A program made the translations under genes and the position numbers. A DNA stretch of 64,000 nt from a virus, in IMG/VR virus record IMGVR_UViG_3300003690_003399, positions 1-64,000 of that record; one strand, written 5' to 3'. Of the stretch, positions 1,015 to 28,455 are shown one piece after another (position 1 is the stretch's first letter; each line of letters begins with the position of its first letter). Under the pieces are notes generated by a model. The model had not been told where the DNA came from and searched no databases. It saw only the letters and a list, made by a program, of their open reading frames with translations.

Positions 1015-1226
1015 AGCTCCTAGCTGAAAAAAATAAAAGAAAATTTACAGTTGGCGACTTAGTACAATTTGATATATCACATATATTAGGAATTGTAACT
1101 GACATAAAAATAGCTGAAACCTTTAGCCCTTTAGAAGAAATATTAGATGTACAAGTTCGCTGGATCGATGGCGAAGAGTTTTGGTGTTTAGAATTCACTT
1201 TAAAGCTAATTTCTAGCGTTAAGTAA
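1011..1226 (+). CDS. small SH3-like hypothetical protein
   Basis: The frame is open from a GTG at 984, but a TTG at 1011 overlapping the preceding TGA (TTGA) fits the coupling style of this genome and gives 71 residues. The body (VGDLVQFDI, GIVTDI, VQVRWIDGEEFWC, LKLIS) alternates short beta strands with Gly turns. It resembles small SH3/KOW-like barrels common in T4-like phages and echoes the proteins at 15860 and 38384. The function is unknown. The start is uncertain because no clear Shine-Dalgarno is visible for either candidate. Confidence 0.65.
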   Translation: MKLLAEKNKRKFTVGDLVQFDISHILGIVTDIKIAETFSPLEEILDVQVRWIDGEEFWCLEFTLKLISSVK

Positions 1227-1236
1227 CTATTTAATA
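1225..1236 (+). promoter_or_regulatory. AACTATTTAATA motif, candidate phage promoter element
   Basis: The 12-mer AACTATTTAATA lies in the short gap upstream of the gene at 1262. The identical 12-mer recurs at 5493, just before the gene at 5509. Both copies sit in rare intergenic gaps, which suggests a phage promoter or processing element. The factor that reads it is unknown. Confidence 0.35.
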
Positions 1237-1261: not shown

Positions 1262-2203
1262 ATGAAAAACGACATGATGCTTATAATGGAAAATTGGCGC
1301 AAAGGTCAAGAAAAACTTTTACTTGAAGGTAAAATTCTTGATTGGATTAAACAAAGCATTAAAAACGGCTTTAAGAAATTAACAAAGAAGCCCGAAGTGT
1401 TTGATGCAATGGTAGAAGACGCAAAAGCATCCTTCGAAGAAATAATGATGGATAAATTAAAAAACAATCCTGAAGTCCAAGAAATAGGAAGAGAAGTTGC
1501 AGATATAATTAACGCACAACAATCTTCAAATGATGAATTGGCTTTAAATGAGGGCTGGACGGATCCCGAACCGGCCGGCGCGCAGCCCGAAGATCCTGAA
1601 GACCCTGAAGACCCTGAAGACCCTGAAGATCTCGACCCAGAGACTCCCGAAACTGAAGAAAAAAAAGAATTATCCGATGATGATTTGAGAGAAATAGGTT
1701 TATCTGATGAACAGATTGATAAATACAGGGAGAAGTTTTCAGAAATAATTGCATCGAGCATTCTCGAAGCAGCGGAAGAAGCTACTGGTAAAGTGGCCCC
1801 ACCAGAAGTTAAAGATTTCCTTGTGCGGTTTTTTAAACGATCATCGAAGATGATTGCATTTGGATTTGTTGATAACTTTATTATGATCACAGCCGGAGAC
1901 TATATTGATCCTGAATTAAAGAATTTGTTAGGTACTTCTACTATGTTTGCAGCCGGAATAGGAAATATGATATCAGATGTCGCTGGTGAAGAGGCCGGCG
2001 GCCTACTCGACTCTACATTAGAAAAAATGGGCCTGGATATCCAGGATGTCTCTGATGAACAAATGGAGGTGTCGCCGGGCTGGATGCGATTTATGGACAG
2101 ACGCGCAGGAACGTTTGGTGTCGCAATTGGCTGCCTTTTAGGAATGATTCCACTGGCATTTATGGAAGATAAGGAAAAAGATGACCGTGAAACTCTTATT
2201 TGA
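1262..2203 (+). CDS. hypothetical protein with ENWR leader, acidic linker and hydrophobic C-terminal region
   Basis: The product is 313 residues and of unknown function. The N-terminus has the leader MLIMENWR followed by KLLLEG, the same layout as the leader at 3329 (MKLLFENWR ... LLIEG). A LLE-G site here fits the T4 prohead protease consensus (L/I)xE. Residues about 100-125 are a Pro-Glu-Asp repeat (five PED units). Two hydrophobic, Gly-rich segments follow, near residues 195-240 and 285-303 (FGVAIGCLLGMIPLAF), and could be membrane-active. An internal head or ejected protein is plausible, by inference. Confidence 0.75.
   Translation: MKNDMMLIMENWRKGQEKLLLEGKILDWIKQSIKNGFKKLTKKPEVFDAMVEDAKASFEEIMMDKLKNNPEVQEIGREVADIINAQQSSNDELALNEGWTDPEPAGAQPEDPEDPEDPEDPEDLDPETPETEEKKELSDDDLREIGLSDEQIDKYREKFSEIIASSILEAAEEATGKVAPPEVKDFLVRFFKRSSKMIAFGFVDNFIMITAGDYIDPELKNLLGTSTMFAAGIGNMISDVAGEEAGGLLDSTLEKMGLDIQDVSDEQMEVSPGWMRFMDRRAGTFGVAIGCLLGMIPLAFMEDKEKDDRETLI
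1586..1630 (+). repeat. five tandem 9-bp units coding for Pro-Glu-Asp
   Basis: Five consecutive 9-bp units close to CCTGAAGAC encode PED-PED-PED-PED-PED inside the gene at 1262. The central three are identical. They form a short acidic linker, probably expanded by slippage. Confidence 0.8.
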
Positions 2204-3332
2204 AAATTGGCGAGAATACCGATTGCAGGAGGCCGAAGAAGCAGAGACTGAAGAAGAAACTGAAGAAGAAACTTCTGAGGATGCTGTATTAGATTTATCA
2301 AGAGAGTTTGATTCTGGTTTCTGTAAATATAACCCCCTTATAAACGAGTATGCACAATACTCTCCAGATCAATTAGCTGATGTATTAATGTTTGTAATCG
2401 GTACACAACAAATGAGGTGGTATGATGTAGTGCCAAAGTTTCCAATATTATTAAAATTTGTTCATGAAAATGATGGTTTAATGACTGATAAAAATTTGCT
2501 GAACCCGGGCAAAAAGAAACCTAGATATGATTTTTCTGGATTTGGCCAATTGGTTATGGGCCCGCGCAAACATGCAATTGATTATTTGTGGAAAAACAGA
2601 GAAAAGATATATTCTAGTTTTAGTAGCTTGTTCAGTGAATATAATAATTCTAGTGGACTAAAAAAAGAAGAAGCATTGTTTAATATTTATTTGCAAACAT
2701 TAACATTACCAGGATTTGGCTTACCAAAAGCGGCGTTTGCAACTCAATTAATCATTGGTCGTTTGGGTTGTATTGATTCAATTAACCTCAACATATATAA
2801 AGGAATATCAAAAGAATTTAACATATTGACACCTGGAGGTAAAGGATTTCGAGCACCTAAAGTTACTACATCTGGTAAAAAAGTTATTCAAGCGGGGGAA
2901 TTCGATAGCAACATAATTAAGCTCGGACCTAGGGGCATTGAATTGGCCGAAAAATACGTAGAATTTTTAAGGCAAATTGCAAAAGAAACTGGTGCTAGTG
3001 ATATCTCTCACAAATTGTGGGATTCTTGGGTAGAGTTGGTAGCTAAAAAAATCAACATAAAAGACGACATCAAAGTAATAATGCCAGATGGGTCTGAGCA
3101 TGTTGTACCTAATGATTATTCCAAAAATATAAAAGGAGCAGAAACAAATCCTTCTGCCGCCTTCAGAAAAAAATATATAGGTAAAATAACCGGTCAAGAT
3201 GTTTCTAGACAACATCATATACCAACAATGAATGAAAACAAAAAAGATCAACTATTATTTGAAAGCTGGTCCAAATATTTTTATAACTCTTTAAAAGAGC
3301 GTTTAATTAGAATAAAGGTCAAAACAAGATGA
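2181..3332 (+). CDS. helix-hairpin-helix-like protein with MKLLFENWR leader
   Basis: The product is 383 residues. The ATG at 2181 has an AAGGA site 5 nt upstream; the GTG at 2187 would give exactly MKLLFENWREY and may be the true start. The leader ends LQE-A, a possible (L/I)xE cleavage site, followed by a Glu-rich tract. Around residues 180-215, LPGFGLPKAAFATQLIIGRLGCIDS resembles the helix-hairpin-helix found in many T4-like phage proteins and in HhH-GPD folds, implying DNA binding. The C-terminal end carries a second leader-like motif, LLFESWSKYF (near residue 360). The gene overlaps both neighbours. The role is inferred: a DNA-associated virion or replication protein. Confidence 0.75.
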   Translation: MTVKLLFENWREYRLQEAEEAETEEETEEETSEDAVLDLSREFDSGFCKYNPLINEYAQYSPDQLADVLMFVIGTQQMRWYDVVPKFPILLKFVHENDGLMTDKNLLNPGKKKPRYDFSGFGQLVMGPRKHAIDYLWKNREKIYSSFSSLFSEYNNSSGLKKEEALFNIYLQTLTLPGFGLPKAAFATQLIIGRLGCIDSINLNIYKGISKEFNILTPGGKGFRAPKVTTSGKKVIQAGEFDSNIIKLGPRGIELAEKYVEFLRQIAKETGASDISHKLWDSWVELVAKKINIKDDIKVIMPDGSEHVVPNDYSKNIKGAETNPSAAFRKKYIGKITGQDVSRQHHIPTMNENKKDQLLFESWSKYFYNSLKERLIRIKVKTR

Positions 3333-5494
3333 AGTTATTATTTGAAAATTGGCGAAATCATTTAGCTTCCCTCGAAACACAACTTTTGATTGAGGGCATT
3401 GTAAAAGATGTCAAAACGAAATATATACATATCTCTGAAGTGATTGACCATCTGGTAGAAAATCTACAACCTTTCGACGGGATTAAATATCTTAGGTGGG
3501 CGGCTAAACAGGCCATGAAATCTTATGATGCGGCGAAGGCTCACGATCACGTCGATCCCAAAGAACCCGCAATGGGACAGGCAGTCATGTTAATTCCACA
3601 AATTAAAAGATTCGATGAATCTAAGCAACGCTTCCCGAAATTTGGCTTCTCTACAGATATTAATTCTTATCAGTCTTTCGAAGATCTACAAAGTGCAGTT
3701 GAAACCGTCGAGGCAGAAGAAACACAGAAAACAAAAAGAGCAGAAGAAAAGCGCGCAGCTTTTAGCGAAGCGGATATACTTACAGGCCAAGATAAAGGTG
3801 ATGATTTTTTTATTGTTCGCCCATATACGAAAAAAGCCGCCTGTTATTTTGGTCAAAGATATGGCGGCACACAAGTAAAATGGTGTATCACTCAAGAAGA
3901 GATGGACTATTTTGATGACTACACTGATCGTGGAGACGCCTTTTATTTTGTTTTTCCGACACATCTTTCAAAGGATAATCAATATAAAAAATTAGCTTTT
4001 GTTTTTAACTCAGATCTGCGCGTTACAAGCGTATGGGATGCGCCGAATAGTACTATAGACAAAGAAGAACAAGAGCAAGTATTCGTACAAAATCTCCTGC
4101 GCCAGGGTGAAGAAGAAGGAGCCTGGATGACCTATTTGTGGGCCACGGAGGGCAAGTTTGAAGATGAGGCGACCCAAAAAGATATAGAAAAATATAATCA
4201 AGCATTAAAAAGACTCGGATTACCCACATTAACCACAGTAAATGAATGGAAGGTCAAGAGAAGTGAGGACCCATCGCCCACCGAAGCGATTGCTCAAAGC
4301 CGTCTGAGTGAATACAAGAACGATGTACAGAAAGAAATTAAGGATTGGTCAAACGAAGCAATTCTCAAAAAGGCAAAAGACGCCCTGCGCGCAGTTGAAG
4401 ACGATACCCGCGAACATCTAAGAGAGAACCCGGTTGAATATACTGGACCAACATTTGCAGACTTTGAAGAGATCAAAGACGAGTACGAGGAAGAAGCAGA
4501 AAACATATGGATTGACCTTGAAGAATCAGATGATCCTCGCAATCCGTATTGGTCCGCGGGCGGCCAATTTGATTTTGTTCAAACAGATGAAGAAGGAAAC
4601 GAGCACATATTTGAATCAGATGATATACTGAATATGCTTGAACAGTCGTCCACCGAGGCTGGTATTTATATGGAGAACATCCAGGCCTCTATTGACGGTG
4701 GTGCAAACGTTCATTTCACCGCGGATCGTGATGAACATGGCTTAGAAGGATTTAGGTCATGGATCAATAGAATGAAAGAATGGGATGAAAAATGGGATGA
4801 ATTGTATGCTGACACGCTTAAGGCGCTGAAGCGACAAGAAATTTCAAGAGCCCGAAAAGGGGGCATGCCCGAAACTAAACATTTCAAAATAGAAGAAAAA
4901 AGAGAGGATTTAGAAGCTACTGCGGTGATAGAACTTAAATTACCAGGAGTACTTAATTTGTTAGGCGACCTCGGCGCCATGGACGAAGTCGAGTCGCACA
5001 GAGCAAGAGTAAACCTCAAGATAAAAACTAGAGATCTCTTCGATAGATATACTATAGCCAGAAATATTTATTTTAAAAGAATACAAGCCTATATTGATGA
5101 AGCTGAAAAAATAGCTGCAAAACAGTTAAATCTGCCGGGCATTGATGCACCGGAAAAAGAAAAAGTAGGTATACCCGCACTTGATGGGGTCTTTGCCAAT
5201 ACAAACTTTGATGTAGACAATGAAACTTTATACACTACACTTATGTTTACCATCCGCGGAGCACGTCAGGATGATGAAATAGAATATATTGTAAACTTCA
5301 TTAAATATCTAGATGATCATTTCGAAGAAATGATGCAAATATTAGCAGATTCAACGATACAGATGTTACGCAGAGCTATTAAACAGGGGTTAGAAAATTT
5401 ATTTGATTTTGGAGCACCGCCCGAGTCAAGCCTATCAGAATCAAAGAAAAGAACCAAACTTATCATCGAGATAAGAAAAAGAAAACAAACATAA
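3329..5494 (+). CDS. large hypothetical protein with MKLLFENWR leader and a WCIT...FDDY domain
   Basis: The product is 721 residues. It begins MKLLFENWRNHL and has LLIEG near residue 20, a match to the (L/I)xE prohead-protease consensus. Residues about 150-250 contain a compact domain (DFFIVRPYTKKAAC, VKWCITQEEMDYFDDYTDRGDAFYFVFP) like an uncharacterised module I recall from other marine T4-like phage proteins with a WC(I/T)..FxxY..G.xYF signature. The rest is charged, helical and partly coiled coil. The start overlaps the previous stop by four bases. No catalytic residues are recognised. It is a candidate internal head protein because of the leader. Confidence 0.75.
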   Translation: MKLLFENWRNHLASLETQLLIEGIVKDVKTKYIHISEVIDHLVENLQPFDGIKYLRWAAKQAMKSYDAAKAHDHVDPKEPAMGQAVMLIPQIKRFDESKQRFPKFGFSTDINSYQSFEDLQSAVETVEAEETQKTKRAEEKRAAFSEADILTGQDKGDDFFIVRPYTKKAACYFGQRYGGTQVKWCITQEEMDYFDDYTDRGDAFYFVFPTHLSKDNQYKKLAFVFNSDLRVTSVWDAPNSTIDKEEQEQVFVQNLLRQGEEEGAWMTYLWATEGKFEDEATQKDIEKYNQALKRLGLPTLTTVNEWKVKRSEDPSPTEAIAQSRLSEYKNDVQKEIKDWSNEAILKKAKDALRAVEDDTREHLRENPVEYTGPTFADFEEIKDEYEEEAENIWIDLEESDDPRNPYWSAGGQFDFVQTDEEGNEHIFESDDILNMLEQSSTEAGIYMENIQASIDGGANVHFTADRDEHGLEGFRSWINRMKEWDEKWDELYADTLKALKRQEISRARKGGMPETKHFKIEEKREDLEATAVIELKLPGVLNLLGDLGAMDEVESHRARVNLKIKTRDLFDRYTIARNIYFKRIQAYIDEAEKIAAKQLNLPGIDAPEKEKVGIPALDGVFANTNFDVDNETLYTTLMFTIRGARQDDEIEYIVNFIKYLDDHFEEMMQILADSTIQMLRRAIKQGLENLFDFGAPPESSLSESKKRTKLIIEIRKRKQT

Positions 5495-5504
5495 CTATTT
5501 AATA
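5493..5504 (+). promoter_or_regulatory. second AACTATTTAATA motif
   Basis: This copy is identical to the 12-mer at 1225 and lies in the 14-base gap between the genes at 3329 and 5509, ending 5 bases before the ATG. If it is a promoter -10 region, transcription would start inside the coding region or with a tiny leader. It could instead be a translation-initiation context, since no Shine-Dalgarno precedes this ATG. Confidence 0.3.
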
Positions 5505-5508
5505 TATA

Positions 5509-7152
5509 ATGCCTTGTACAATCAACAACAACACTTCCCACGACCTATCTCAGTTGGAAGACTTAACCAAGAAATTAGTTCCTTTTGCGCAAAAGCAAAT
5601 AGGCTTTAATCGACCACCAACAATTAATTTTAATGATGACGAAAATAACGCAGCTAACCCGCTTGGAAGAACGGCGCAATACGATCCTTCAAATATGGAA
5701 ATTATTATCTTTGTTACAGGGCGCCACACAAAAGATATTCTGCGCTCAATTGCACACGAGCTAGTTCACCACGGACAAAATTGTAGAGGCGATCTGGACG
5801 GTGACATTCAGACAGAACTTGGTTATGCACAAAACAACAAACACATGAGAGGGATGGAGCGCGAAGCGTACGAAGTCGGCAATCTTTGTTTTCGAGATTG
5901 GGAAGACGGGATAAAACAGCAATTACCGCTACATGAAACTATTTATAGGGAATCTCTTATAGGAGGAGAAAGCATGACACTTAAAAACTGGAGAATCAAG
6001 GAACTTAATGATCTTATGATGGAAAAATGGGGGTATAAACCGCCCGTTAAAAAGAAGCTTGATGAAGAACTTGATGCCTACATGGATATGCTCGATTATC
6101 AAACTGGTGAAGAGAGTTTAGATGAAGACGACGATGACGATGACGGTGATGGCGATGGGGACGGCGATGACGATGATGAGTCTAGTAGTCATCTACATTT
6201 AAATCCTCAAAGCCCTACATTTAGGCTCAAAATAAAAAGCGGCCGAAAGCGACTGCAGGAAGTTGTCCCACCGAGAAAGCCGCCGCGAAAGCCGCCGCAG
6301 AGAAGGCGAACAGCGGCGGATATACAGATTAAGAAGGCCGCCGCTGTGGGACACCACCGGACATTCTGGACGACATTTACATGGGCCCCGCGCACTTCAC
6401 CAGCTAGTTGGACCCCTAGACAAGTTCACAAAGCCTACAAACAACTTCATCTGACAAAGGGCAAGCTGAAGCCCGGAAGCTGGCCCGGCGAGGCTAGGGT
6501 CCGGGTAGCTTTGGAAAATATGTACAACACAGGAAAATTTACATTACCACCCGCCCCGATGCTTCCAATACGCAGGTGGGAAAAAGAAGGAAGAGTAAAA
6601 AAAGATAAAGATAAACGAACAAAAGAGCAACAAAAAAAAGATCATGACAAATTAAAAGAACTAGAACGAGATTTTTGGGAAGAAGGGCCAGAAGTTATAC
6701 AAAAAGGCCGCTGGCGGCGATGGTGTGGGGGGCACAAAGGTGTTTGTACACTACTCTGGGTTGCCGGTATTGCCACCGCCACAACATTCCTCGCTAAATC
6801 ATTTGACGTAGACTTGCTACAGCACTATCGCAACTGGCAAAAAGGGTCAGCAACACCTCGCGCGGCGGAGTGGGAAACAAAAGTAGGTACCATAGAAGGA
6901 AGCCCGGGCGAACAAATACCAGCTGCGCCGGTCACAGCACCAGTAAAACAAGCCACCGCGGAGAAGTGGAAAACTATAAAGAAAGACGGTACCCCATGTC
7001 CTACAGGCACCTGGACTCAATTAACAGCTCATGGGGATCCCGTAGAATGCGGAGTTTCATTGAACGGTCAGATTAATCCTGATACCAAAAGAAAAACGGC
7101 GAAGTGTAAGTGGGTAAATGGGTGTCCTGAATTTAATCCCACTATCGAGTAA
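5509..7152 (+). CDS. HExxH zinc metallopeptidase domain followed by acidic, basic and TM regions; possible two-product gene
   Basis: The product is 547 residues. Residues 80-90 hold HELVHHGQ (His83, Glu84, His87), the HExxH zinc-peptidase motif, with MEREAYEVG (residues 116-124) offering a third ligand. After about residue 155 the character changes. A leader-like MTLKNWRIKEL at residue 156 is preceded by a consensus ribosome site (see 5961). Then come an Asp/Gly tract (about 205-225), a Pro/Arg/Lys-rich stretch and a TM helix (about 412-430). The first ATG lacks a clear Shine-Dalgarno. The gene may therefore yield a full-length peptidase and a shorter protein of 392 residues. The region 6200-6410 may carry compensated frameshifts. 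Confidence 0.75.
   Translation: MPCTINNNTSHDLSQLEDLTKKLVPFAQKQIGFNRPPTINFNDDENNAANPLGRTAQYDPSNMEIIIFVTGRHTKDILRSIAHELVHHGQNCRGDLDGDIQTELGYAQNNKHMRGMEREAYEVGNLCFRDWEDGIKQQLPLHETIYRESLIGGESMTLKNWRIKELNDLMMEKWGYKPPVKKKLDEELDAYMDMLDYQTGEESLDEDDDDDDGDGDGDGDDDDESSSHLHLNPQSPTFRLKIKSGRKRLQEVVPPRKPPRKPPQRRRTAADIQIKKAAAVGHHRTFWTTFTWAPRTSPASWTPRQVHKAYKQLHLTKGKLKPGSWPGEARVRVALENMYNTGKFTLPPAPMLPIRRWEKEGRVKKDKDKRTKEQQKKDHDKLKELERDFWEEGPEVIQKGRWRRWCGGHKGVCTLLWVAGIATATTFLAKSFDVDLLQHYRNWQKGSATPRAAEWETKVGTIEGSPGEQIPAAPVTAPVKQATAEKWKTIKKDGTPCPTGTWTQLTAHGDPVECGVSLNGQINPDTKRKTAKCKWVNGCPEFNPTIE
5961..5976 (+). promoter_or_regulatory. consensus ribosome binding site with in-frame internal ATG
   Basis: AGGAGGAGAA at 5961 stands a few bases before an ATG at 5974 in the same frame as the host gene. 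Translation from here would give MTLKNWRIKEL..., a leader like those at 1262, 2181 and 3329. The outer start at 5509 has no comparable site. Confidence 0.6.
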
Positions 7153-7165
7153 AGGAGACTATATA

Positions 7166-10100
7166 TTGAATATTTGCCTTAAAAAGTCACCCCCCTTGCT
7201 CACCGAACAACAAACAAAACCGAGCGGCATTTCTGCATACGTTGTAGGCACCATAGATGGTACGGTATTAGGAAACTATCGCGGCAATAAAACTTTTTAT
7301 GGCGCGTCAATGGAAAAGCCTATCCTGGCATTAATGAATGCCATATATTATACTAATATAAAATACCATACGATTACTACTAAAAAAGATGATGAATCAC
7401 ATGAAGCTCATGTAAAACGGGATAACAAAGTATTTGCTATGGCCAAACGACTACAGCACGGGTGGATAACGTGCCCCGAGCAGTTAACGGGGGCGCCCCC
7501 AATCTGCTCAGAACTCATTCTTGACGAGAAGATTTTCTACCAAGAGGCAAAAAATCATTTATTAACAGATGAAGAACTCGATGGACTTTTGGGTTATCGT
7601 GGGCTAAATTCGAATGCTGTGAATAGAAGTATCAAGGGCACAAACCCCGGCGTTAAGTGGAGCACAGCCGACAAACGATATACAAATAGTAGAAATGGTA
7701 GGTGTACACCAAAACCGTGTGGCAAACCACCGCTGGCGGTCCCAATTTCTGCAATGAAGCAAATTTTACAAGATATTGACCCTAACGGACTTTTAAAAGG
7801 AATACGATTTGCAAATGGTCGACAGACCGCCTTAAGCATGTACAACTTCATGATGTTTTTACTAAATGCAGAAACAATACCCGCGCTAAAGGATTACAAC
7901 CCGCAAGTAAAGAGAATTTTAAATTATATGACGCGAAGCGTATTCGGCGACACATACCCTGGTGGGTATGATCGAGACTCAGCCGGGATTATTAAATTAA
8001 AAAAAGAATTGAATCGTTACTGGCCTAATAAAATTACGAGCATATGGGGAAAAGGAGGGTTCACACAAAAAACACCAGTTTTAAACTATGCTCTCGTAAT
8101 CAACAACCAATATATATTAGTTGTATATACTAGACAACCAATAATGAACACTGCGTGCAAACCACAACAATATCGCTGCGCTAAAAATGCAGCATTTCCA
8201 CCACTTACAAATGCAATAGTTCAAGCCTTGTCGAGTGCAGAAGTATTTGGAGCACCAACAACACAAGTTAAGAAAAAAGCAACATTTATAGACATAAGTA
8301 AGAGTGAAGAAGTGCCTGAGAATATAAGTTTTTTCCCAGGTACGAAAAATGCATGCGGTACAGCTGCCATGCAACGATATGTGATGATCGTCTTAGGTAC
8401 CAATTTACAAAATTACGAGTGGTGTGTTGGAGACATTAGTAAATGTCCAACTGGCGGACCTATCGCGGGACATGATTCTCATAAAATCGGCATTGATATT
8501 GATGTAGCTCTTCCAACGGAAAGCCGAGGCCTCACAGGCTGCTCGACCAACCAAAAAGAAGGAAAATGGATAAAAAAGGGCGGCCAAAAATTTAAAAATA
8601 TAACCCCCGAACAATTAGATGCTACCGCTGCATTCAATTTTTTAAAAGCAACAGCACCATGGGCTCAGTATGTCGGCGTAGATAAACAATTCTGGCCGAA
8701 GATAAAGGAAGCTGCCGAAAAAGCTGGAATGGTCAAAGATAGCGCAGCATATAAACGTACCTTCTCTGTGTTGAGAGCGTGGAAACACCATAAAAGCCAT
8801 TTTCATGTACGACTAGGGACGAATACCGTAATCCGGGTGGCCCCGACGAAAGCCGGCGGAGCCACTACTGTCACAGCAACCGCACAACCCAGTATATCTT
8901 CCGAGATAGAAAAAATAGGCCAAGAAAAAGGCGCCGCCGTGGTGCGCTGCAATCAGTGGAAAGTCGAGGAATATAAAGACGCCAACAACAACGCCTGTGT
9001 GAAGGGGACAGCTGGGTGCAAGAAACGTGGTCAGCCGGCGCCCGGATTTGAGTATGATCCAGATTTTTCTTTTGCAGATTTTTATTGTGATCTTGAGCTT
9101 TGGGCGCCCTGGATTGATAAGAATCTTAAAAGCGCTGAAGACATTTTAAAAAAGTACGACGCAACACTTAATTGGATTTATGATGGTGGTCACGATAAAG
9201 CAGCCGATGTATTGCAAAAGGCATGGCTGCAAGCAGAGATTGCGGACAAACTAAGCCAACAACGAGAAGAAGAGATTGATTTCATGGGCCCCGAATGGCA
9301 AAAGTTGCTGCAGCAGCTTAAAAATAAACCCGGAGTCTCGTACCCCACTCCTATTAATTGTGGCGGTCGCGACGCTCTTTGTGGAAAAAACCAAACATGC
9401 GAGGAGTGGCCAGGGAAAAAGCGATGGAGATGCGTTTACAAAAAGAAGGAGGTAAAAGAAAATATGCTACCGAAAAGTATTAATAAGACAATACATTTGT
9501 CTATTCAAAAAACTAATTATAAGAAGTACCTTTTGGAGAAAAAGCCAGTGAAGGCTGAAAAAATAAAAATAAATAAAAACCTCCTACAAGAAAGCATTAA
9601 ACAAAAGCTATTAAATAACCCACAGCTATTAGATCGGCTCGCTTTAAACGAAGGCCCTGTTAGGTGGTTGAGAGAATTCGTCGCTATTTTTAGGGGAATG
9701 TTCCCCAAAATGGCGCCACGAGGAAAGGGCACGTGGGAATTTGTAAAGAGAGCATCAAAACGGTCAGCGAACGTTATGGGAGGATCTTGGAAACTGACAA
9801 AGCACATGAGACACACTCTATTTAATAAGTACGAGGGCTTGGCGACAGGGATTTGGATGACGAGCATGTTTTTAGACGACGAGGGCGATCAACCCCTTAC
9901 ACAAATCTTCAATGCGTTATATTCGAACTTCACCATGAGCGGCCAACTTATTTATATCTTTCAAAGGTATGGCATGAAAAACCGGTCACAACAATTTATA
10001 TACTGGACCCAGGGAAGGCCCGAAAGATGGGAAAAAATGGGAAAAAAACAATACCTTATGCTTCCACGTAATAGGTACAAAGGAGCCGTCGAGTGCGAAG

Positions 10101-11152
10101 AAGATGCTGAAGGAAATCTCGTCGATACAAACTGCTGGGCTAGCGATGATTTTTGTGGTGATCTAGAAAAAAAGTACCAAGGCGCCAAATCCTGTGGGCC
10201 CTCCTATTCTGGACATACATCTGGTCTCGGGACATCGTACTGGACATTTATGAATCCATTCCTGTTTGCACAGAACGTCAAACAATATCTCAAAGCAACT
10301 GATACACTGCCCGAAGATAAGAAAAAGGAAATTATTGACTCCTTTGATGCTGCGATGTCTGCAACAAGAAACTTTGAAAGCCAGTGTGGCAAAATGTACC
10401 CTGAAGATGAGAAAGGTCAGAAGGTATGTCTCCTATTGGGCAAAAAAATGCTTGCTGCGAATACGGCAATGACGCTCATCTGGGATAAATACCTTGGCGC
10501 ACTTCAAACACCAGAAGGATCGCCGTATTCTCCAACAAGCCCATTCATACATTCTCCCGAGGCTCAAGAAAAGAGCAGAGAGGTGAAAGAAAAACAAAAC
10601 GTGGCCATGCAACTACAGTATGGATATTTTGTGTTAAGCAAGTGTGAATATTATGTCAAAAATGGCCCACCAGGCGGGGCGCCAGATCCGGTTTATGACT
10701 GTAAAAATCTAAGTCCTAATTACAAACGATGCGCCTCAGAGTGTCCACAGAAGCATACAATGGTTGGTGGGCGCCCCGGCGATCTACTTGAGCTAGGTTC
10801 ATCTCCTATGAATGGCCCGGGCTTTAAATATTGGTTCCAGAAGTACGTTAATGATCCTAAAAATAATTTTGGTGGCATAACTGCGTATGAAGCAATGTGT
10901 ATGTTGGTAAATACTGGCAACACCAAAGGGTGCAAAAGCCCCGGCGTGGATCCGGAACTATGGCCATTGACGGCGCGCCTATGCGGCATTTGTCCCCAAC
11001 TTAAAAAGGGGCAAAGAGCGAGTGCCCATGAGTATGTATATGGGCCCCCCGGATGGATTTCACCAGCTACTAAAAAGACGCTTCCTGCGCGCCCAACTGC
11101 GCCGCTGACCAGCGACGAGCCAGAAGAATTCCAACCAGAAGAGGAATACTAA
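7166..11152 (+). CDS. multidomain murein-active protein: serine beta-lactamase-like domain plus MepA-like (M74) endopeptidase
   Basis: The product is 1328 residues from TTG at 7166, which has AAAGGAG 8 nt upstream; the ATG at 7118 lies inside the previous gene. Domain 1 (about 30-345) shows Ser48-Met-Glu-Lys51 (SxxK) and Lys296-Gly-Gly, the nucleophile and KTG-like motifs of class A beta-lactamase/DD-peptidase folds. Domain 2 (about 395-550) has GHDSHKIGIDID (His436/His439...Asp) and HFH (545-547), the zinc ligands of penicillin-insensitive murein endopeptidase MepA. The remaining Cys-rich C-terminal half (from about 767) follows an in-frame ribosome site and ATG at 9464 and is unrecognised. 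It probably acts on host peptidoglycan; whether it is a virion or lysis protein is inference. Confidence 0.8.
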   Translation: MNICLKKSPPLLTEQQTKPSGISAYVVGTIDGTVLGNYRGNKTFYGASMEKPILALMNAIYYTNIKYHTITTKKDDESHEAHVKRDNKVFAMAKRLQHGWITCPEQLTGAPPICSELILDEKIFYQEAKNHLLTDEELDGLLGYRGLNSNAVNRSIKGTNPGVKWSTADKRYTNSRNGRCTPKPCGKPPLAVPISAMKQILQDIDPNGLLKGIRFANGRQTALSMYNFMMFLLNAETIPALKDYNPQVKRILNYMTRSVFGDTYPGGYDRDSAGIIKLKKELNRYWPNKITSIWGKGGFTQKTPVLNYALVINNQYILVVYTRQPIMNTACKPQQYRCAKNAAFPPLTNAIVQALSSAEVFGAPTTQVKKKATFIDISKSEEVPENISFFPGTKNACGTAAMQRYVMIVLGTNLQNYEWCVGDISKCPTGGPIAGHDSHKIGIDIDVALPTESRGLTGCSTNQKEGKWIKKGGQKFKNITPEQLDATAAFNFLKATAPWAQYVGVDKQFWPKIKEAAEKAGMVKDSAAYKRTFSVLRAWKHHKSHFHVRLGTNTVIRVAPTKAGGATTVTATAQPSISSEIEKIGQEKGAAVVRCNQWKVEEYKDANNNACVKGTAGCKKRGQPAPGFEYDPDFSFADFYCDLELWAPWIDKNLKSAEDILKKYDATLNWIYDGGHDKAADVLQKAWLQAEIADKLSQQREEEIDFMGPEWQKLLQQLKNKPGVSYPTPINCGGRDALCGKNQTCEEWPGKKRWRCVYKKKEVKENMLPKSINKTIHLSIQKTNYKKYLLEKKPVKAEKIKINKNLLQESIKQKLLNNPQLLDRLALNEGPVRWLREFVAIFRGMFPKMAPRGKGTWEFVKRASKRSANVMGGSWKLTKHMRHTLFNKYEGLATGIWMTSMFLDDEGDQPLTQIFNALYSNFTMSGQLIYIFQRYGMKNRSQQFIYWTQGRPERWEKMGKKQYLMLPRNRYKGAVECEEDAEGNLVDTNCWASDDFCGDLEKKYQGAKSCGPSYSGHTSGLGTSYWTFMNPFLFAQNVKQYLKATDTLPEDKKKEIIDSFDAAMSATRNFESQCGKMYPEDEKGQKVCLLLGKKMLAANTAMTLIWDKYLGALQTPEGSPYSPTSPFIHSPEAQEKSREVKEKQNVAMQLQYGYFVLSKCEYYVKNGPPGGAPDPVYDCKNLSPNYKRCASECPQKHTMVGGRPGDLLELGSSPMNGPGFKYWFQKYVNDPKNNFGGITAYEAMCMLVNTGNTKGCKSPGVDPELWPLTARLCGICPQLKKGQRASAHEYVYGPPGWISPATKKTLPARPTAPLTSDEPEEFQPEEEY
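9446..9466 (+). promoter_or_regulatory. perfect Shine-Dalgarno (AAGGAGGT) with in-frame internal ATG
   Basis: AAGGAGGT at 9446-9453 is a full anti-Shine-Dalgarno match, followed after 10 bases by ATG at 9464 in the frame of the surrounding gene. A product of 562 residues starting MLPKSINKTIHL would lack both murein domains. The first 50 residues from this start are Lys/Leu-rich (KYLLEKK, NLLQES), similar in character to the leaders of nearby genes. Confidence 0.6.
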
Positions 11153-13557
11153 TGGGAACACCAGGACATATGGCACACCCGTTTGGCGACGAAGATCATC
11201 CTAGTTTATGGCAGCGCGTCAGAACTGGTCAAGATTTACTACGATACTTTCACGATATCAAAGAATTTCTCGAATTAAATCCTGGTAGTCTTAAAATTGA
11301 TGGCATCAATGTAAGTTTTAAGCTTATAACCACAGAAGGCGGCAAAAAAGAATTCCGAATGGATCGTGGTACAACGTACACTGAATCTGTTATCGGAATG
11401 ACCGCTGAAGATGCCTACAAAAAATGGCTACCCACACTAGAAGCTGATCCTGAAAAAACAGAAATGTGGAATACCCTTGGAAAAGATGAACAAAGAAACG
11501 CTTTTTTAAGGTTTCGCGAACTGCAATCCGAGCAAAAAACAGAAGAGGAAATATCTCAAGAAATGGGAGCATATTTTCAGAGCATAGAAAGATTGCCTGA
11601 TGAACATGTTCGTATGCTGCCTGGATTGTTTGTGGATGGATCATTTAAAGAACATGGCATGCCGGGCGCAATCAAAACTCTTTTAGAAATATTCAACGAG
11701 GCCTTACCAAGTATCCAGTACGAGCTTAAAGATTTGGGAATGTGGGACAATCCCCAAAAATTCTTTAACACTGAATATGTCGAAGGAAAAACAAACGTCC
11801 AACAATATGATAAAAACTTTTTAGCTATTCATGGTATTAATCAATTCTACGAAAAGAAAGCTCCTAAGTCTTGGGTAGCAGCTGGAAAATCCATGGACCG
11901 CAAGGGACTAGAAAGACCAACAAACCCCAAAACTGGTAAACTCGTTAAAGACGCAGGCGTCGAAATTCTTTATAATAGAGGCGCTTTAGAATCTCTTATC
12001 AAAAAAGTTAAACCAATTGCCTCGCAGCGCGGATTTGAAATTTATGGCGATATACCAACCCAACTCATAGCAGAAATCGATTATACTGAGACTCTCGGAT
12101 CTCCTTTTACAATTCAAATGACGGCGGAAGAGCAAACCACACATTCTTTAAGTGAATGGCTTGAGGAAGTACATAACCCTAAAAATGAAAAAGTTACAAA
12201 AGCCGATGGAACAACGGTCCCAGCTATTGGCAAAGATGTTTACATGGCAGTAACAAAACATATTCCCCTTACTGAATATCTCAAATCTCCAGAAGACGTA
12301 AAGAGGGCCGTTAGCGGCGCCATTTTTAATCACGCGACTCGAATGCTAGGAAATGACGTTAAGAGCGCTCTAGATAGCTCTATGGGCTCCGTAACGGATC
12401 ATGAAGGGGTAGTACTTAGGGGGATGGAAGATTTTCCAGTAAAAGTCACTGGAGAATTTATTGTTGGCGGTATGCAAACAGCATTTCGAGAGGGGGTGAT
12501 AAAAGAAGTCGAAGAGCTAAAAGGCATAAAAGATGTAGAAGAAGAATACAACATAGAAACTGTTAATATGGATGAGCCAGAAGCAAAGAAAAAGATTGCT
12601 TTAATTCCAGGGGGCTTTAAACCGCCACACAGAGGACATTTAGCTTTAGTTACACACTATTTAGAAGAAGTTGCACCGGACGGAAAAGTAATTCTTTTTA
12701 TGGGCAGTGGAGGCAAAACGCCGCGAACAATTCATGGGAAAGCTATAACTTATGAACACGCTTTACAAGTATGGAAAATATATTTAAACAATGAAAATAT
12801 TGCGTTCCCCAATGAAATTTTAGAGATTAAAGAAATTAAAGACGCCGGCCCAGTTGGTGCAGTTGTAGACTATATTAAAGAAGTCGACCCAGATAAAGAA
12901 ATTATTTATTTAGGCGCCGGAGAAAAAGATTCCGAACGATGGAAATTTATGCTTGATAACCCCAAGTATAACCCCAATAATGTAAAAGTATTTATTGAGC
13001 CTGTACCAAACTATAATGACAAAGAAGGCAAGCCAATGAGCGGCACAAATTTTCGTGATGCCATAGAAAGCGCCGATGAAGAATTAATTAAAAGCTACAT
13101 GCCAGAAGCTAGCCAAGATTCTTATAGAGAATTCATGGACGCTTTTGAAGATAGGCTAAAGGAGTCCCAGCAGCCGCTGGGCATATTTCTGCGGTTAATA
13201 GAGCAGACGCTTAATGAAACAATACCTGGTAGCGATATGACTAATATGTTTGGTTACGCTGCTGGGAACCTGAGCAATATAACTCGCCCCGATATCGCCA
13301 CTGGATCGGAAGAAGAGGAAGAAGTAGAAGAAAAGCCAACGGCCAAAGACGTATTCGAAGCATTTATTGCTGCGATAAAAGGCGTAGCAGAAGAAAGTGG
13401 TGTTAAAAATGGCGATGACGAAGAATTAGAAGAAATATCGGCGATGGGAGCAGGCGCAGTTGAAATGGGCGCAGGCAAGCGCGATGATAAAGAGAAAGAA
13501 ACGTTAATTCGTGAGGTTGAAGACTATTTATTTAGTACTTTAGGAGATATTTTATGA
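11152..13557 (+). CDS. KxDG (nucleic-acid ligase-like) domain fused to HxGH cytidylyltransferase-type nucleotidyltransferase
   Basis: The product is 801 residues; the start overlaps the previous stop (TAATG). The N-terminal part contains Lys48-Ile-Asp-Gly51 in SLKIDGINVSFK, the KxDG signature of covalent nucleotidyltransferases (DNA/RNA ligases), followed by a beta-rich stretch ending MDRG. From about residue 480, IALIPGGFKPPHRGHLALV (His493-Arg-Gly-His496) and later SGTNFRDAI (near 628) are the T/HxGH and C-terminal motifs of the NMNAT/PPAT nucleotidyltransferase superfamily. The last 120 residues are acidic. Fusions of this kind are known in T4-like phages; the substrate is unknown. A role in nucleic-acid end repair or NAD metabolism is inference. 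Confidence 0.8.
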   Translation: MGTPGHMAHPFGDEDHPSLWQRVRTGQDLLRYFHDIKEFLELNPGSLKIDGINVSFKLITTEGGKKEFRMDRGTTYTESVIGMTAEDAYKKWLPTLEADPEKTEMWNTLGKDEQRNAFLRFRELQSEQKTEEEISQEMGAYFQSIERLPDEHVRMLPGLFVDGSFKEHGMPGAIKTLLEIFNEALPSIQYELKDLGMWDNPQKFFNTEYVEGKTNVQQYDKNFLAIHGINQFYEKKAPKSWVAAGKSMDRKGLERPTNPKTGKLVKDAGVEILYNRGALESLIKKVKPIASQRGFEIYGDIPTQLIAEIDYTETLGSPFTIQMTAEEQTTHSLSEWLEEVHNPKNEKVTKADGTTVPAIGKDVYMAVTKHIPLTEYLKSPEDVKRAVSGAIFNHATRMLGNDVKSALDSSMGSVTDHEGVVLRGMEDFPVKVTGEFIVGGMQTAFREGVIKEVEELKGIKDVEEEYNIETVNMDEPEAKKKIALIPGGFKPPHRGHLALVTHYLEEVAPDGKVILFMGSGGKTPRTIHGKAITYEHALQVWKIYLNNENIAFPNEILEIKEIKDAGPVGAVVDYIKEVDPDKEIIYLGAGEKDSERWKFMLDNPKYNPNNVKVFIEPVPNYNDKEGKPMSGTNFRDAIESADEELIKSYMPEASQDSYREFMDAFEDRLKESQQPLGIFLRLIEQTLNETIPGSDMTNMFGYAAGNLSNITRPDIATGSEEEEEVEEKPTAKDVFEAFIAAIKGVAEESGVKNGDDEELEEISAMGAGAVEMGAGKRDDKEKETLIREVEDYLFSTLGDIL

Positions 13558-14324
13558 ACCAAGAAGAAGCAAGGCTCAGAGCATTGATTAGAAAAGGCAT
13601 TCAGATTGTAACAGAGCGCAAAGAACAGCAACAAACTGAAGTACAAAGATTACGCAATGTTATTCATCATTTAATTGGCGAAGTTAAAGGTACCACCGAT
13701 GTTGCCGATAGAGTAATTCATAAAAATAGCGGAATTAACGTTTTAGACACTCTCCTAAAAAATGTTATTAAACAAATAGAAAGCTATTATAAAGATCTCT
13801 CTTCAAATGATCAACAGCGTAAATCCTTTAGATATCACTTTTTAATTAATTTTAAAAATGCTCTCGCGCCCATTAATGCAAATAGAGACGCACCAGATAA
13901 AGAGGCATTAGCAGAGCAAGATCTTAGTGTATTAATCGATGATGAACTAGATGATGAGGACATTGATACTCCTCCCGATGAATCAAAATTCCTCCCCGCG
14001 AGACCTCAAGATGAAGAAGAAGCCAAAGACGAAGAAGAAAAAGAAACTGGTTTTATTAAGTTAGACTCCGATGATCCTTCGGTTCGACAGGGCGCCGCAT
14101 TTGCTGAAAAAGCCTGGAATGATGTAGAGAATCAAATTCAAACTGCATACGAAGATTTGATTGATCCAGAAGATGCCGCGGCATTTTATGATTGGGGTCT
14201 TACAAATTTAAAACTTTATTTTGATAAATTTGAAGATGAAATGGCAGAATCTGGACAAGAACCGGAAAGTCCCGATTACCCACCAACGGGGCAGGCCCCT
14301 CTAGAAGAAACATATGAAATATGA
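13554..14324 (+). CDS. acidic hypothetical phage protein
   Basis: The product is 256 residues; its ATGA start overlap couples it to the ligase/nucleotidyltransferase gene. The N-terminal 110 residues are helical and mixed-charge (possible coiled coil around residues 5-40). A strongly acidic linker follows (LIDDELDDEDID, EEEAKDEEEKE) and then a helical C-terminal third. No motif is recognised. The composition fits a scaffold-like or DNA-mimic protein, but there is no direct support. Confidence 0.7.
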   Translation: MNQEEARLRALIRKGIQIVTERKEQQQTEVQRLRNVIHHLIGEVKGTTDVADRVIHKNSGINVLDTLLKNVIKQIESYYKDLSSNDQQRKSFRYHFLINFKNALAPINANRDAPDKEALAEQDLSVLIDDELDDEDIDTPPDESKFLPARPQDEEEAKDEEEKETGFIKLDSDDPSVRQGAAFAEKAWNDVENQIQTAYEDLIDPEDAAAFYDWGLTNLKLYFDKFEDEMAESGQEPESPDYPPTGQAPLEETYEI

Positions 14325-14665
14325 AACTAACTAAATCAAAACTTAAACAGCTAATCAAAGAAGAGTTGCGAAAAGCGCTTCATGAATCATTTGATGAAAA
14401 AGAGTTTCAAACTTGTGTACAACAAATAATAACTAAAGACTACACGGGTACTAATTTCCAAAAGAAATACGACGCCACAATGTCATGTTGTACAGAATAC
14501 TGGAAAAGAACGGGTCGATCCACTCACGAAACATACGATCAAAATGTTGCAGATTGTAAATATGTTCGATGCATCCAAATAATAAAAGGCACTAGTGGCT
14601 ACCAAAAGGCTGATGCAAGTGGGAAGAAAGAGCGTATGCAAAGGTGCCGTCGGTGGCATCCTTGA
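14321..14665 (+). CDS. small Cys-rich protein with MKLTKSKLKQLIKEEL leader
   Basis: The product is 114 residues. The N-terminus MKLTKSKLKQLIKEELRKAL is a basic amphipathic helix of a type I have often seen at the start of marine phage proteins; it ends in IKE-E and LHE-S, which could serve as (L/I)xE cleavage sites. The mature part has several cysteines (CCTEY, DCKYVRC, RCRRW) that could form disulfides or bind metal. ATGA overlap with the upstream gene. The function is unknown; I group it with the leader-bearing proteins upstream. Confidence 0.7.
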   Translation: MKLTKSKLKQLIKEELRKALHESFDEKEFQTCVQQIITKDYTGTNFQKKYDATMSCCTEYWKRTGRSTHETYDQNVADCKYVRCIQIIKGTSGYQKADASGKKERMQRCRRWHP

Positions 14666-15135: not shown

Positions 15136-15509
15136 GGGGACGAAACGGTTTCGACGAAGAGCGAAGAAAATAGCACGCAAGACTGTGTGAGTAACACAGT
15201 AAAAATGCTCAAACTTTATAAATGCCAACGATAACGTTGAATTTGATTACGCCTTAGCTGCATAATCGGAAGTTGTTAGTGACTTTCTAAAAGAACACTA
15301 GACGTTTTCAATTTTAGGAAAAATTGATAGGAACTTAGTCATTTTGGTGACTATGTATATCTCGGTAGCCAACACCTTAAGTTGGTAAATGGATTCCCTG
15401 ACTTTGATCAAGGTGGCTGGTACTTCGGCGGTGAATGTACCAATTTCTTGTATATCGCGTTATTTTTGATTCTTTTCGGACTCGGGTTCGACTCCCGACG
15501 TCTCCACCA
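15136..15509 (+). ncRNA. ssrA: phage-encoded one-piece tmRNA; tag ANDNVEFDYALAA
   Basis: About 374 nt. The 5' end GGGGACGAAACGGTTTCGAC and the 3' end with a T-arm (GGGTTCGACTCCC) and GTCTCCACCA pair to form the tRNA-like acceptor stem; the CCA is encoded. The tag reading frame at 15224-15265 starts with resume codon GCC and ends TAA, reading ANDNVEFDYALAA, a typical C-terminal degron ending ALAA. It rescues stalled ribosomes. The RNA is continuous, not the permuted two-piece form of alphaproteobacteria. It follows its own promoter; no terminator is visible, so processing must set the 3' end. Confidence 0.97.
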
Positions 15510-20385: not shown

Positions 20386-21087
20386 ATGAACTATATTTCG
20401 GAAAGTGCCGAGAGGGCGAAAAATAATAGTAGAGAAAAATATATTTATGGAGATAAATTAGTTTACATAAAAGATCAATTGCCTTATGGATTTGATTTAG
20501 ATTACGTACTCAAAACAATTGAGAATTTGATTCCGCGTAATTTTTTTGAAAACATTGATTCAATTTATATAGGAAAGTTTAAAGACTTTGAAAATGGAGA
20601 CCTCCCCTTTAACGCAAAATACAAAGACAACGCTTTATATGTTACAAACAAACAAGATAACGAAAATGATATGATGGATGATATTATACATGAAGTAGCA
20701 CATGCTGTCGAAGAACGTTTTGGAGACCAAATTTATTCTGATTTTACAATAGAGAATGAATTCAAAGGCAAAAAGCGCACCCTTTATCACCTTTTAGATC
20801 AGGAGGGCTATGAACCTTCTTTAGAACAATTTGATAATGTTGAATATGACAAACATTTTGATCGATATCTTTATAAAGTAGTAGAATACCCCACCCTTAG
20901 TACTTTAACGACGGGCCTATTTTATTCTCCCTATGCGATAACCTCACTTAGAGAATATTTCGCCAACGGGTTCGAGAACTACTTTTTAAGAGACAAAAGC
21001 TATTTAAAGAAAATAAGCCCAGCAGTATATAGCAATATTGCTGATTTATTAGATAAACAATTAGGAGAAGAAAAAAATGAATATTGA
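20386..21087 (+). CDS. zinc metallopeptidase-like protein (HExxH...EYFA)
   Basis: The product is 233 residues. IIHEVAHAVEERF (His102, Glu103, His106) is an HExxH zinc site. REYFANGFENYF (Glu190) about 85 residues later gives the third ligand in the pattern seen in anthrax lethal-factor-like (ATLF) and related gluzincins. There is no signal peptide, so it acts in the cytosol or is packaged. It is the second gene after the consensus early promoter and so is probably early. Cleavage of a host protein is a reasonable guess; the substrate is unknown. Confidence 0.8.
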   Translation: MNYISESAERAKNNSREKYIYGDKLVYIKDQLPYGFDLDYVLKTIENLIPRNFFENIDSIYIGKFKDFENGDLPFNAKYKDNALYVTNKQDNENDMMDDIIHEVAHAVEERFGDQIYSDFTIENEFKGKKRTLYHLLDQEGYEPSLEQFDNVEYDKHFDRYLYKVVEYPTLSTLTTGLFYSPYAITSLREYFANGFENYFLRDKSYLKKISPAVYSNIADLLDKQLGEEKNEY

Positions 21088-22179: not shown

Positions 22180-23448
22180 ATGAGCGAAAAAATTAAGATC
22201 ATGACCATTAGTGATATGCCTTTCGCGCCTTCTGGCGTGGGCACGCAAACAAGATATATCATCGAAGGCATGTTAAAGACCGGTAAATACCAATTTGTTA
22301 GTTTAGGCGGAGCTATGAAACACCCCAATCATAATCCAATTAGGACAGAAGAGTGGGGCGATGATTGGGTCACATTTCCTGTTGATGGATACGGTTCACA
22401 AGAGATTGTGAGATCTATCCTGCGACAGGAAAGACCCCATATTCTTTGGTTTATGACTGATCCACGTTTTTGGGGCTGGCTGTGGGAAATGGAAAATGAA
22501 ATCCGCCCATTAGTTCCTATGATATATTACCACGTTTGGGATAACTACCCTTATCCCACTTATAATAAAAAGTTTTATGAATCAAACGACTTGATTGCAA
22601 CCATCTCCAAAGTAACTGATGATATCGTTAAAACAGTTGCCCCCTCAGTAAAAACAATCTATTTGCCACACGCAGTTAACACGGAAGCATTTAAAAAGTA
22701 TGATGAAGAAAAGGTTAAACCATTTATTATGAATAGTTTTGGCGACAAATATGATCCAGATAAATTCATTTTCTTTTGGAATAACAGAAATGCGCGCCGA
22801 AAACAAAGCGGTTCATTAATTTTTTGGTTCAAAAAGTTTTTAGATAAAGTAGGACACAATAAAGCATCTTTAGTAATGCACACTGATATTAAAGACGCGC
22901 ACGGGCAAGATCTCGAAGCCATTATTCAGCACCTAGGAATAAACAATGGAGAAGTAATGTTCTCACAACAAAAAATAGAACCAGAAATGTTAGCGCTTTT
23001 ATATAATATGGCTGATTGCACTATTAATATATCAGACGCAGAAGGCTTTGGTCTCTCAACTTTAGAATCATTAGCATGCGAAACTCCAATAATTGTCAAT
23101 ATGACGGGAGGGCTTAAAGAACAAGTAACAGATGGTAAAAAATGGTTTGGTATCGGTGTAGAGCCAACATCTAAAGGAGTAATTGGTTCCCAAGAAATAT
23201 CATGGATTTATGAAGATCGTCTCTCAGAAGAAGTGGTAGTCAACGCATTACTAGAAATATACAATAAACCAAAAGAAGAGAGAGATGAGCTAGGTCGTAA
23301 AGGGCGAGAGCACGTGATGACTAACTATAATTTTGATGACTTCATTCAAAAGTGGGATGAGTTATTTACGATGGTTTATGAAGAATACGGTTCTTGGGAT
23401 ACACGCAAACCGCATAACGACCGCTGGATTCTAAAGGAGATCGCATGA
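22180..23448 (+). CDS. GT4-family glycosyltransferase
   Basis: The product is 422 residues with a GT-B fold. The N-terminal Gly-rich acceptor loop is FAPSGVGTQTRYI, and the C-terminal nucleotide-sugar motif is SDAEGFGLSTLESLACETPII, with the E-x7-E signature of retaining GT4 enzymes. The length is normal, and the C-terminal helix ends VYEEYGSW. It opens the 16-kb glycan island and overlaps the next GT4 gene by ATGA. Donor and acceptor are unknown. Confidence 0.92.
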   Translation: MSEKIKIMTISDMPFAPSGVGTQTRYIIEGMLKTGKYQFVSLGGAMKHPNHNPIRTEEWGDDWVTFPVDGYGSQEIVRSILRQERPHILWFMTDPRFWGWLWEMENEIRPLVPMIYYHVWDNYPYPTYNKKFYESNDLIATISKVTDDIVKTVAPSVKTIYLPHAVNTEAFKKYDEEKVKPFIMNSFGDKYDPDKFIFFWNNRNARRKQSGSLIFWFKKFLDKVGHNKASLVMHTDIKDAHGQDLEAIIQHLGINNGEVMFSQQKIEPEMLALLYNMADCTINISDAEGFGLSTLESLACETPIIVNMTGGLKEQVTDGKKWFGIGVEPTSKGVIGSQEISWIYEDRLSEEVVVNALLEIYNKPKEERDELGRKGREHVMTNYNFDDFIQKWDELFTMVYEEYGSWDTRKPHNDRWILKEIA

Positions 23449-24455: not shown

Positions 24456-24456
24456 A

Positions 24457-25410: not shown

Positions 25411-25412
25411 AA

Positions 25413-26207
25413 ATGGTTACGACTGTAAAAGATACCCAATTGAAAGCATTAAAGGATGTTGGTGCTTTTCTTAAAAACACAGATCAGAACAATCCACAGT
25501 TAGCTTCAACAATATGGAAGTATATTAACGATAACAATATCCAAACAGTCGTGTCACAAGCGGAATCTAATGATTATAGTGAGAATTGGTCACAAGAACT
25601 GGTAGGAAAATTACAACGAATATTCGTTAATTACCAACTTCGACAGCTTAATTTGGGAAATCCCTCCCCGGTTTTTTTTAAACTAAAAGAAGCTTTAGAT
25701 GTTCTACTGGATGAAAACCTTAGCTTGTCTTTGATCGATATTGGATGCACGAGTGGTTATTACTACGATGTTATTAACTTTTATTTTTCTAATAAATTCT
25801 ATTATACGGGATGTGATTATAATAAAGAATCAATTGAATTGGCCAAAGAATATTATCCTACGATTAATTTTCAAGTCGAAGACATAACAGAACTAAGCTT
25901 TAAAGACCGTGAATTCGAAGTTTCTTTATTGGCGGGCGTTATTGAACATGTTCCACAGTATAAAAAGGGATTAAAAGAGCTATGCAGAATAACGGATAAA
26001 TATATTGTTTTACACAGAATTTGGCTAACAGATGATGAGACTATTTGCAAAAAAGGAACACAATATTTTGTTCCTGTGATAAGAAACATGTATAATAAAG
26101 AAGATTTTTTTCATATTTTGAAAGAAAATAGTTTTACAGTTAAATGGAGTGGCGATGTTTATGACCAGAATTGTAGAACGTATATTTTAGAGAGAACAAC
26201 TGAGTAG
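25413..26207 (+). CDS. class I SAM-dependent methyltransferase
   Basis: The product is 264 residues. Motif I is LIDIGCTSGYYYD (about 107-119); the acidic motif II is YTGCDYNKESIELAK, and VEDITELSF plus SLLAGVIEHVPQY give motifs III-IV. The N-terminal 100 residues are helical. It lies directly behind the GT2 gene (gap of two bases) and probably methylates a sugar or sugar nucleotide; the acceptor atom cannot be told. Confidence 0.88.
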   Translation: MVTTVKDTQLKALKDVGAFLKNTDQNNPQLASTIWKYINDNNIQTVVSQAESNDYSENWSQELVGKLQRIFVNYQLRQLNLGNPSPVFFKLKEALDVLLDENLSLSLIDIGCTSGYYYDVINFYFSNKFYYTGCDYNKESIELAKEYYPTINFQVEDITELSFKDREFEVSLLAGVIEHVPQYKKGLKELCRITDKYIVLHRIWLTDDETICKKGTQYFVPVIRNMYNKEDFFHILKENSFTVKWSGDVYDQNCRTYILERTTE

Positions 26208-26214
26208 GATTTTT

Positions 26215-28444: not shown

Positions 28445-28455
28445 GATACGATTAA

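Follow-up and report, generated by a model that had tools for sequence, protein, structure and literature searches.

What is the function of a short peptide that opens three consecutive genes in the DNA of a T4-like phage and that stands, in related DNA, before about 100 clusters of otherwise unrelated proteins? The question is raised by the first 64,000 bases (hereafter the window) of the 80,075-base linear viral record IMGVR_UViG_3300003690_003399. This record carries T4-like genes, namely gp25-like and gp6-like baseplate genes and a gene for a gp55-like late sigma factor, and near its left end three open reading frames (ORFs) on the plus strand, 1262–2203, 2181–3332 and 3329–5494, overlap end to start and begin with similar leaders. 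An initial annotation had read these leaders as a candidate capsid-targeting signal. Our analysis suggests that the leader, MKLLxENWRxYLxE, is very likely a capsid-targeting propeptide of T4-like phages with many cargos; we hold the same reading with somewhat less confidence for each of the three window genes taken singly.

Anatomy of the leader and its boundary with the cargo

A DNA pattern for M-K-h-h-h-E-[NS]-W-R matched at least 120 stretches in viral_contigs, compared with a single one for a control with W and N codons swapped. The set of leaders analyzed here (leader 1) comprised 120 loci among the matches listed and 7 larger records; after removal of leaders with identical downstream 23 residues, 185 of 217 leaders remained. 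With a relaxed motif, 217 of 223 matches in this set were located at ORF starts. The consensus of 14 residues is M-K-L-[LI]-[LMF]-E-[NS]-W-R-x-[YF]-[LIV]-x-E. Since M, K and E-[NS]-W-R were fixed by the search pattern, whereas the residues after R were not, only the latter count as free evidence. There, [YF] (frequency 0.85) and [LIV] (0.85) are followed by a variable residue, by E (0.76) and then by no conservation, with an information content of 2.07 bits at the terminal E, 0.41 bits at the next residue and 0.18 bits, and dropping, beyond. The motif [LIVM]-x-E is found exactly at the leader end in 137 of the 185 leaders, compared with 140 of 7380 downstream control positions (1.9% per position). 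Among the 48 leaders in which the exact site is missing, L-x-E lies one residue later in 18, shifting as a unit, and the hydrophobic P3 residue and the glutamate at P1 co-occur (Fisher p = 9e-10). In 37 further leaders of the 185, [LIVM]-x-E occurs elsewhere within +6 to +26, where chance occurrence is not small. The tails behind the 185 leaders form 100 clusters (BLASTP, 1e-3), 68 of them single, and synonymous codon variation inside the leader indicates that selection acts on the protein. The initial annotation had suggested building such a profile from related genomes, and the profile favors it: the leader is kept in homologues, about 100 unrelated cargo clusters follow it, and a gp21-type L-x-E ends it.

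When a hidden Markov model (HMM) of the leader was run on the ORFs of the record, the genes at 3329, 2181 and 1262 scored 23.8, 19.3 and 12.7 bits, respectively, compared with 5.6 bits for the best of 20 ORF shuffles, which confirms the three leader-bearing starts named initially. The first gene (1262–2203, +) carries the leader core MLIMENWR at 1277–1300 (+), with possible translation starts at 1262, 1274 or 1277. Its candidate gp21-type site, LLE-G (1319–1330, +; residues 20–23 of the ORF), would be cut behind its E, whose codon ends at 1327. In the second gene (2181–3332, +), the GTG at 2187, preceded by an AAGGA-like site, may be the best start; the leader read from it, KLLFENWREYRLQE (2187–2231, +), has L-x-E one place late, followed by A (LQE-A, residues 15–18 of the ORF), and the putative cut would fall after E17. 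The third gene (3329–5494, +) encodes 721 amino acids of an unknown cargo family behind the leader MKLLFENWRNH (3329–3361, +; profile match 6.7e-7), with the candidate gp21-type site LIE-G (residues 20–23) at 3386–3397 (+), which is kept as QLLIEG in the homologues L082 and L010 and reads LLVES in L024. All three sites are where the initial annotation had seen them. The usual cut would be at the L-x-E that closes the leader itself, and LIE-G and LLE-G of the third and first genes lie in sequence that relatives have in addition to, or in place of, this canonical site. The C-terminal part of the first gene (1850–2168) encodes a TMEM65-type membrane domain in a phage protein (residues 197–302; PF10507, 3.5e-30), and a short TMEM65 relative in Vibrio phage 2.275.O has no leader.

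Homologues of the second gene are 84–85% (G033, L041), 54% (L021) and 44% (L071) identical to it, and those in L041, L062/G033, L021 and L071 all consist of the leader, an acidic linker that varies and a body that is conserved. Several of them also retain a C-terminal leader-like stretch, which in the window is LLFESWSKYFYNSL (3252–3293, +). The initial annotation had listed this stretch (LLFESWSKYF, near 3250) as an internal copy of the leader; it is kept at the C-terminus of homologues, but on its own it reaches 4.4 bits, inside the shuffle range. Leader-like stretches are also found at the C-termini of some other cargos. In contrast, MTLKNWRIKEL at 5974, another proposed variant, was discarded, as the profile does not match it and a 62%-identical homologue reads differently there. 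Homologues of the third gene in L082, L010, L024, L011, L077 and L108 start with this leader, in some cases in variant form, and that of Salicola phage SCTP-2 starts with MKVKHILFENYKDL, a possible variant that was unscored by the profile. No close relatives of this gene were found in viral_contigs via back-translated peptides, and TBLASTN of the third and the first gene in annotated phages returned one weak match each. The last 20 residues of the third gene's family consist of [LIV]xE-SK and a basic, strand-like tail, possibly a C-terminal propeptide, though not a general one. A general basic C-terminal tail, which this family had suggested, was not seen across 166 complete leader-1 cargos. 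Structure models of the second and third proteins (mean pLDDT, the predicted local distance difference test score, of 50.6 and 57.4, respectively) were too poor for structure searching.

Outside viral_contigs the leader is rare. In 84,980 bacterial and archaeal genomes the DNA pattern gave 68 matches, two of which, L454 and L473, are real leaders; most of the others are an internal ...ENWRW... stretch, which we take to be that of glucose-6-phosphate dehydrogenase. The two real cases are in DNA binned with Opitutia and WOR-3 metagenome-assembled genomes, and L454, which has several leader genes of both kinds described here, resembles phage DNA. The profile matched none of 32 random viral records of at least 30 kb. 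TBLASTN of a 30-residue leader-bearing piece against annotated phages gave no match, with a query too short to inform.

T4 counterparts, the prohead protease and the cargos

According to a review (PMC9026906), the T4 prohead protease gp21 follows the cleavage rule L/I-x-E, and in the IPIII leader residues 4 and 7 act in targeting and residues 8 and 10 in processing. T4 ipII and ipIII (NC_000866) start with MKTYQEFIAEA, that is, with Y4-x-x-F7-I8-x-E10, and W8-x-x-Y11-L12-x-E14 of our leader has the same spacing four residues further on; by analogy, W8 and Y11 may be the targeting residues. The pattern W-x-x-[FYWH]-[LIVM]-x-E fits 130 of the 185 leaders, compared with 8 of 37407 cargo positions. 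Like the capsid targeting sequence of IPII and IPIII, the leader is an N-terminal stretch of 10–14 residues before unrelated proteins, with an aromatic-x-x-aromatic-[LI]-x-E end. It differs from that sequence in its new E-[NS]-W-R core, its end after 14 rather than 10 residues, its loose P1' position and its approximately 100 cargo clusters in place of a few. Since the likeness to T4 consists of spacing and residue class only, we do not claim common descent. The injected T4 ADP-ribosyltransferase Alt carries propeptides at both termini, a short one at the N-terminus that ends in [LI]-x-E and another at the C-terminus (PMC5694885); such processing at both ends recalls the cargos that bear a C-terminal leader-like stretch, and Pfam found no Alt-like domain in four cargos tried. 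The same paper describes ejection proteins of phiKZ and SPN3US, in which many head-internal proteins are cut by a gp21-like protease after a short x-x-E; those propeptides are mostly longer than 100 residues, whereas the leaders described here have 14, or about 20 for the second one (see below). Searches of open-licence PubMed Central papers turned up no account of such leaders outside T4 relatives and giant phages.

The initial annotation had expected a prohead protease gene elsewhere in the genome. It is present in large related records and in a near relative of the window, but not on the window's own record. PF03420 (gp21, S77 protease) was found in 11 of 40 records bearing leader 1 (6 of the 8 of at least 100 kb), in 17 of 18 records bearing the second leader and in 4 of 32 random viral records (2 of the 4 of at least 100 kb), a rough comparison because the sets differ in size make-up (40 of 80 listed for leader 1, listed records of at least 56 kb for leader 2, and 32 records of at least 30 kb of 80 listed for the random set). 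The near relative, G033 (190,629 bases), has relatives of 40 window proteins and contains both the protease and the leaders. In six of six relatives, the prodomain of the major capsid protein ends with L-x-E, followed by A or Q, as expected for the cut.

Pfam searches with the 100 leader-1 cargo representatives yielded 41 families, mostly with one match each, among them kinases, acetyltransferases, an M23 peptidase, a zeta-toxin-type kinase, SET, exonuclease, NUDIX and lipase domains; PHROGs added deoxyribonucleotidase and endolysins. In L061, which matches a portal protein, the frame is open far upstream, so that the leader motif there is probably internal and due to chance. Cargos that share the prohead with gp21 should avoid its motif. 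Observed counts were compared with a shuffled expectation in one leader-free body per cluster, with 395 other ORF clusters of at most 400 residues from the seven larger records as the background. The observed/expected ratio of [LI]xE was 0.84 (95% interval 0.74–0.96) in leader-1 cargos (n = 100) and 0.86 (0.71–1.01) in leader-2 cargos (n = 188), compared with 1.16 (1.07–1.26) in the background; for [LI]xE[AGS] the ratios were 0.61 (0.42–0.83), 0.72 (0.47–1.01) and 1.37 (1.16–1.59), respectively. No depletion of LxD, LxK, LxQ or ExL was seen in the cargos. With L-x-D as the reference, 5000 bootstraps reproduced the difference from the background every time for leader 2 and failed to do so in only 0.02% of cases for leader 1. 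K-x-E is low in every set (0.75 to 0.88), so that E has some general context bias, for which the background sets control.

This depletion bears on two other explanations. The leader could be a docking helix that is never cut and recruits proteins elsewhere, such as to a replication or nucleotide-synthesis complex, the membrane, the tail or the baseplate, the terminal E being just the helix end. The resemblance of the leader to an amphipathic helix, the loose P1' and the several nucleotide or nucleic-acid enzymes among the cargos are in line with this idea. We nevertheless consider it unlikely, as it leaves unexplained the conservation of E where homology ends, the shift of L-x-E as a unit, the T4 spacing and the avoidance by cargos of L-x-E but not of L-x-D, L-x-K or E-x-L. 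Alternatively, the proteins might be packaged as a scaffold core that aids head assembly and is then degraded, rather than as injected effectors. T4 offers a precedent in the core proteins gp22, gp67 and gp68, which the same protease cuts into small pieces (PMC9026906 and PMC9958956), and some cargos are small and acidic. However, one would expect many cut sites in core proteins, whereas the cargos are depleted of them, contain enzyme domains and vary between related phages, which makes a scaffold role highly improbable.

A second leader, a shared upstream motif and neighboring genes

The leader MKLTKSKLKQLIKEEL at 14321 had been taken initially for a variant of the first one. It is real, but it belongs to a separate family (the MKLTKSKLKQLIKEE leader, consensus MKITKxQLKQIIKEE), distinct in sequence from the first, and we do not call it a variant. 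The gene in question, with the leader MKLTKSKLKQLIKEELRKALHE, occupies 14321–14665 (+), and four further copies are present on the record beyond the window, at 78371, 78788, 79150 and 79535. Among isolated phages, Flavobacterium phage immuto contains one gene of this family. Among the matches listed, at least 234 deduplicated cases of this leader were found; 252 of 257 were N-terminal, and 227 tails gave 188 clusters. [LIVM]xE is located at +19 or +20 in 114 of the 234, about half, with no abrupt boundary as in leader 1. Of 31 genes with the second leader, 15 are within 3 kb of one with the first, compared with a random mean of 4 and a random maximum of 9. The second leader, too, is probably a targeting propeptide, a reading that is surer for the first one. 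A small gene next to gp21 (L138:4393-4755 and equivalents) starts with MKKxELKxxLKPLIKxCIKE, which recalls the second leader; its profile scores are weak.

The three overlapping leader genes of the window are headed by the late-promoter-like motif ACTATTTA at 1226–1233 (+), 28 bases before the ORF at 1262. In six large records, ACTATTTA occurs 111 times on the coding strand and 9 times on the other, and 63 of the 111 occurrences are within 60 bases before an ORF start, compared with 8% for 150 permuted 8-mers (one of these, AACTATTT, scores high because it overlaps ACTATTTA). It precedes scaffold genes, a sheath-like gene, tail genes, 10 leader-1 genes and 6 leader-2 genes; at 36 of 134 occurrences no ORF start is within reach. 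Since it also precedes non-structural genes such as a PhoH-like one, we propose the late promoter role only as a plausible one. The T4 late promoter TATAAATA was not enriched at ORF starts in the six large records. Leader-1 genes tend to be in runs, 33 of 40 being within 3 kb of another (random mean 10), and certain upstream stretches, ACTATTTA among them, are found repeatedly in front of these genes, as would be expected if the leader were a recombination or expression cassette whose conserved DNA aids gene swapping or translation start, the peptide being unimportant; but residues are kept while codons vary synonymously, leader-like copies are found at C-termini too, and DNA conservation does not account for the L-x-E depletion in cargos, so that this explanation is barely credible.

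Elsewhere in the window, 15136–15509 is a phage-encoded tmRNA gene with the tag ANDNVEFDYALAA. Two large proteins, encoded at 7118–11152 and 40360–44694, match the murein endopeptidase M74; for the second, the Pfam match does not reach the cut-off. In the first of them (around residue 843), as in the ORF at 1262 (around residue 95), a KLxNNP stretch precedes ALNEG, which may be another gp21-type site. A metallopeptidase-like protein (20386–21087; Pfam match below the cut-off) is kept in relatives, and 22180–38387 is a long run of apparent sugar and small-molecule enzymes, among which one glycosyltransferase was confirmed.

Weight of the evidence and implications

Several observations weigh against a capsid-targeting propeptide. 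The leader proteins are known here from sequence alone. The leader profile gave nothing against T4 at an E value of 10 and had no match in 7 annotated-phage records, 6 of them from isolated phages. Two of the eight large records lack the protease, possibly because they are fragments, and the 80-kb record of the window, on which neither PF03420 nor any other head gene was found, is therefore probably partial. No [LIVM]xE occurs across the examined range in 11 of the 185 leaders, and P1' extends beyond A and G (E 28, A 17, S 16, G 15, D 14 and others among the 137 canonical sites). Within the window, L-x-E is near the canonical place in the gene at 2181 only and 5–8 residues later in those at 1262 and 3329; depletion is not clear in the three cargos by themselves (17 [LI]xE compared with about 19 expected, too few sites); and one homologue of the third gene (L120) has no leader. 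Finally, some cargos resemble cytosolic enzymes (guanylate kinase, deoxyribonucleotidase, NUDIX, exonuclease) and are not obvious injected proteins; these housekeeping-like enzymes are the main oddity if the cargos are injected. On the other side, the profile, the protease in relatives, the L-x-E depletion and the shared promoter-like motif support the candidate capsid-targeting signal proposed by the initial annotation.

If the leader is such a propeptide, it would, late in infection and probably as a helix, steer each cargo into the core of the prohead, where gp21, the S77 protease, would cut past the terminal L-x-E. The leader would then leave, while the cargo would remain with the DNA and be injected into the next host cell. 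In the window, the leader would serve the genes at 1262, 2181 and 3329. With one leader before many unrelated proteins, cargos could be exchanged without any change in targeting.

More broadly, we lean slightly towards the view that marine T4-like phages possess a general protein-delivery system: hundreds of exchangeable protein families would be loaded into the head by two sequence-unrelated propeptides, with ACTATTTA as the common late promoter, and after removal of the leaders by gp21 a starter kit would reach the host together with the DNA. The loaded families would then be nucleotide enzymes, kinases, acetyltransferases, peptidases and unknowns. Injected proteins can normally be learned from purified virions only; if the leader is a targeting propeptide, those of uncultured marine T4-like phages would become readable from sequence. 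As targeting peptides, the leaders would also offer a new means of filling phage heads with chosen proteins, and the many unknown domains among the cargos would be candidates for early host takeover or anti-defence.

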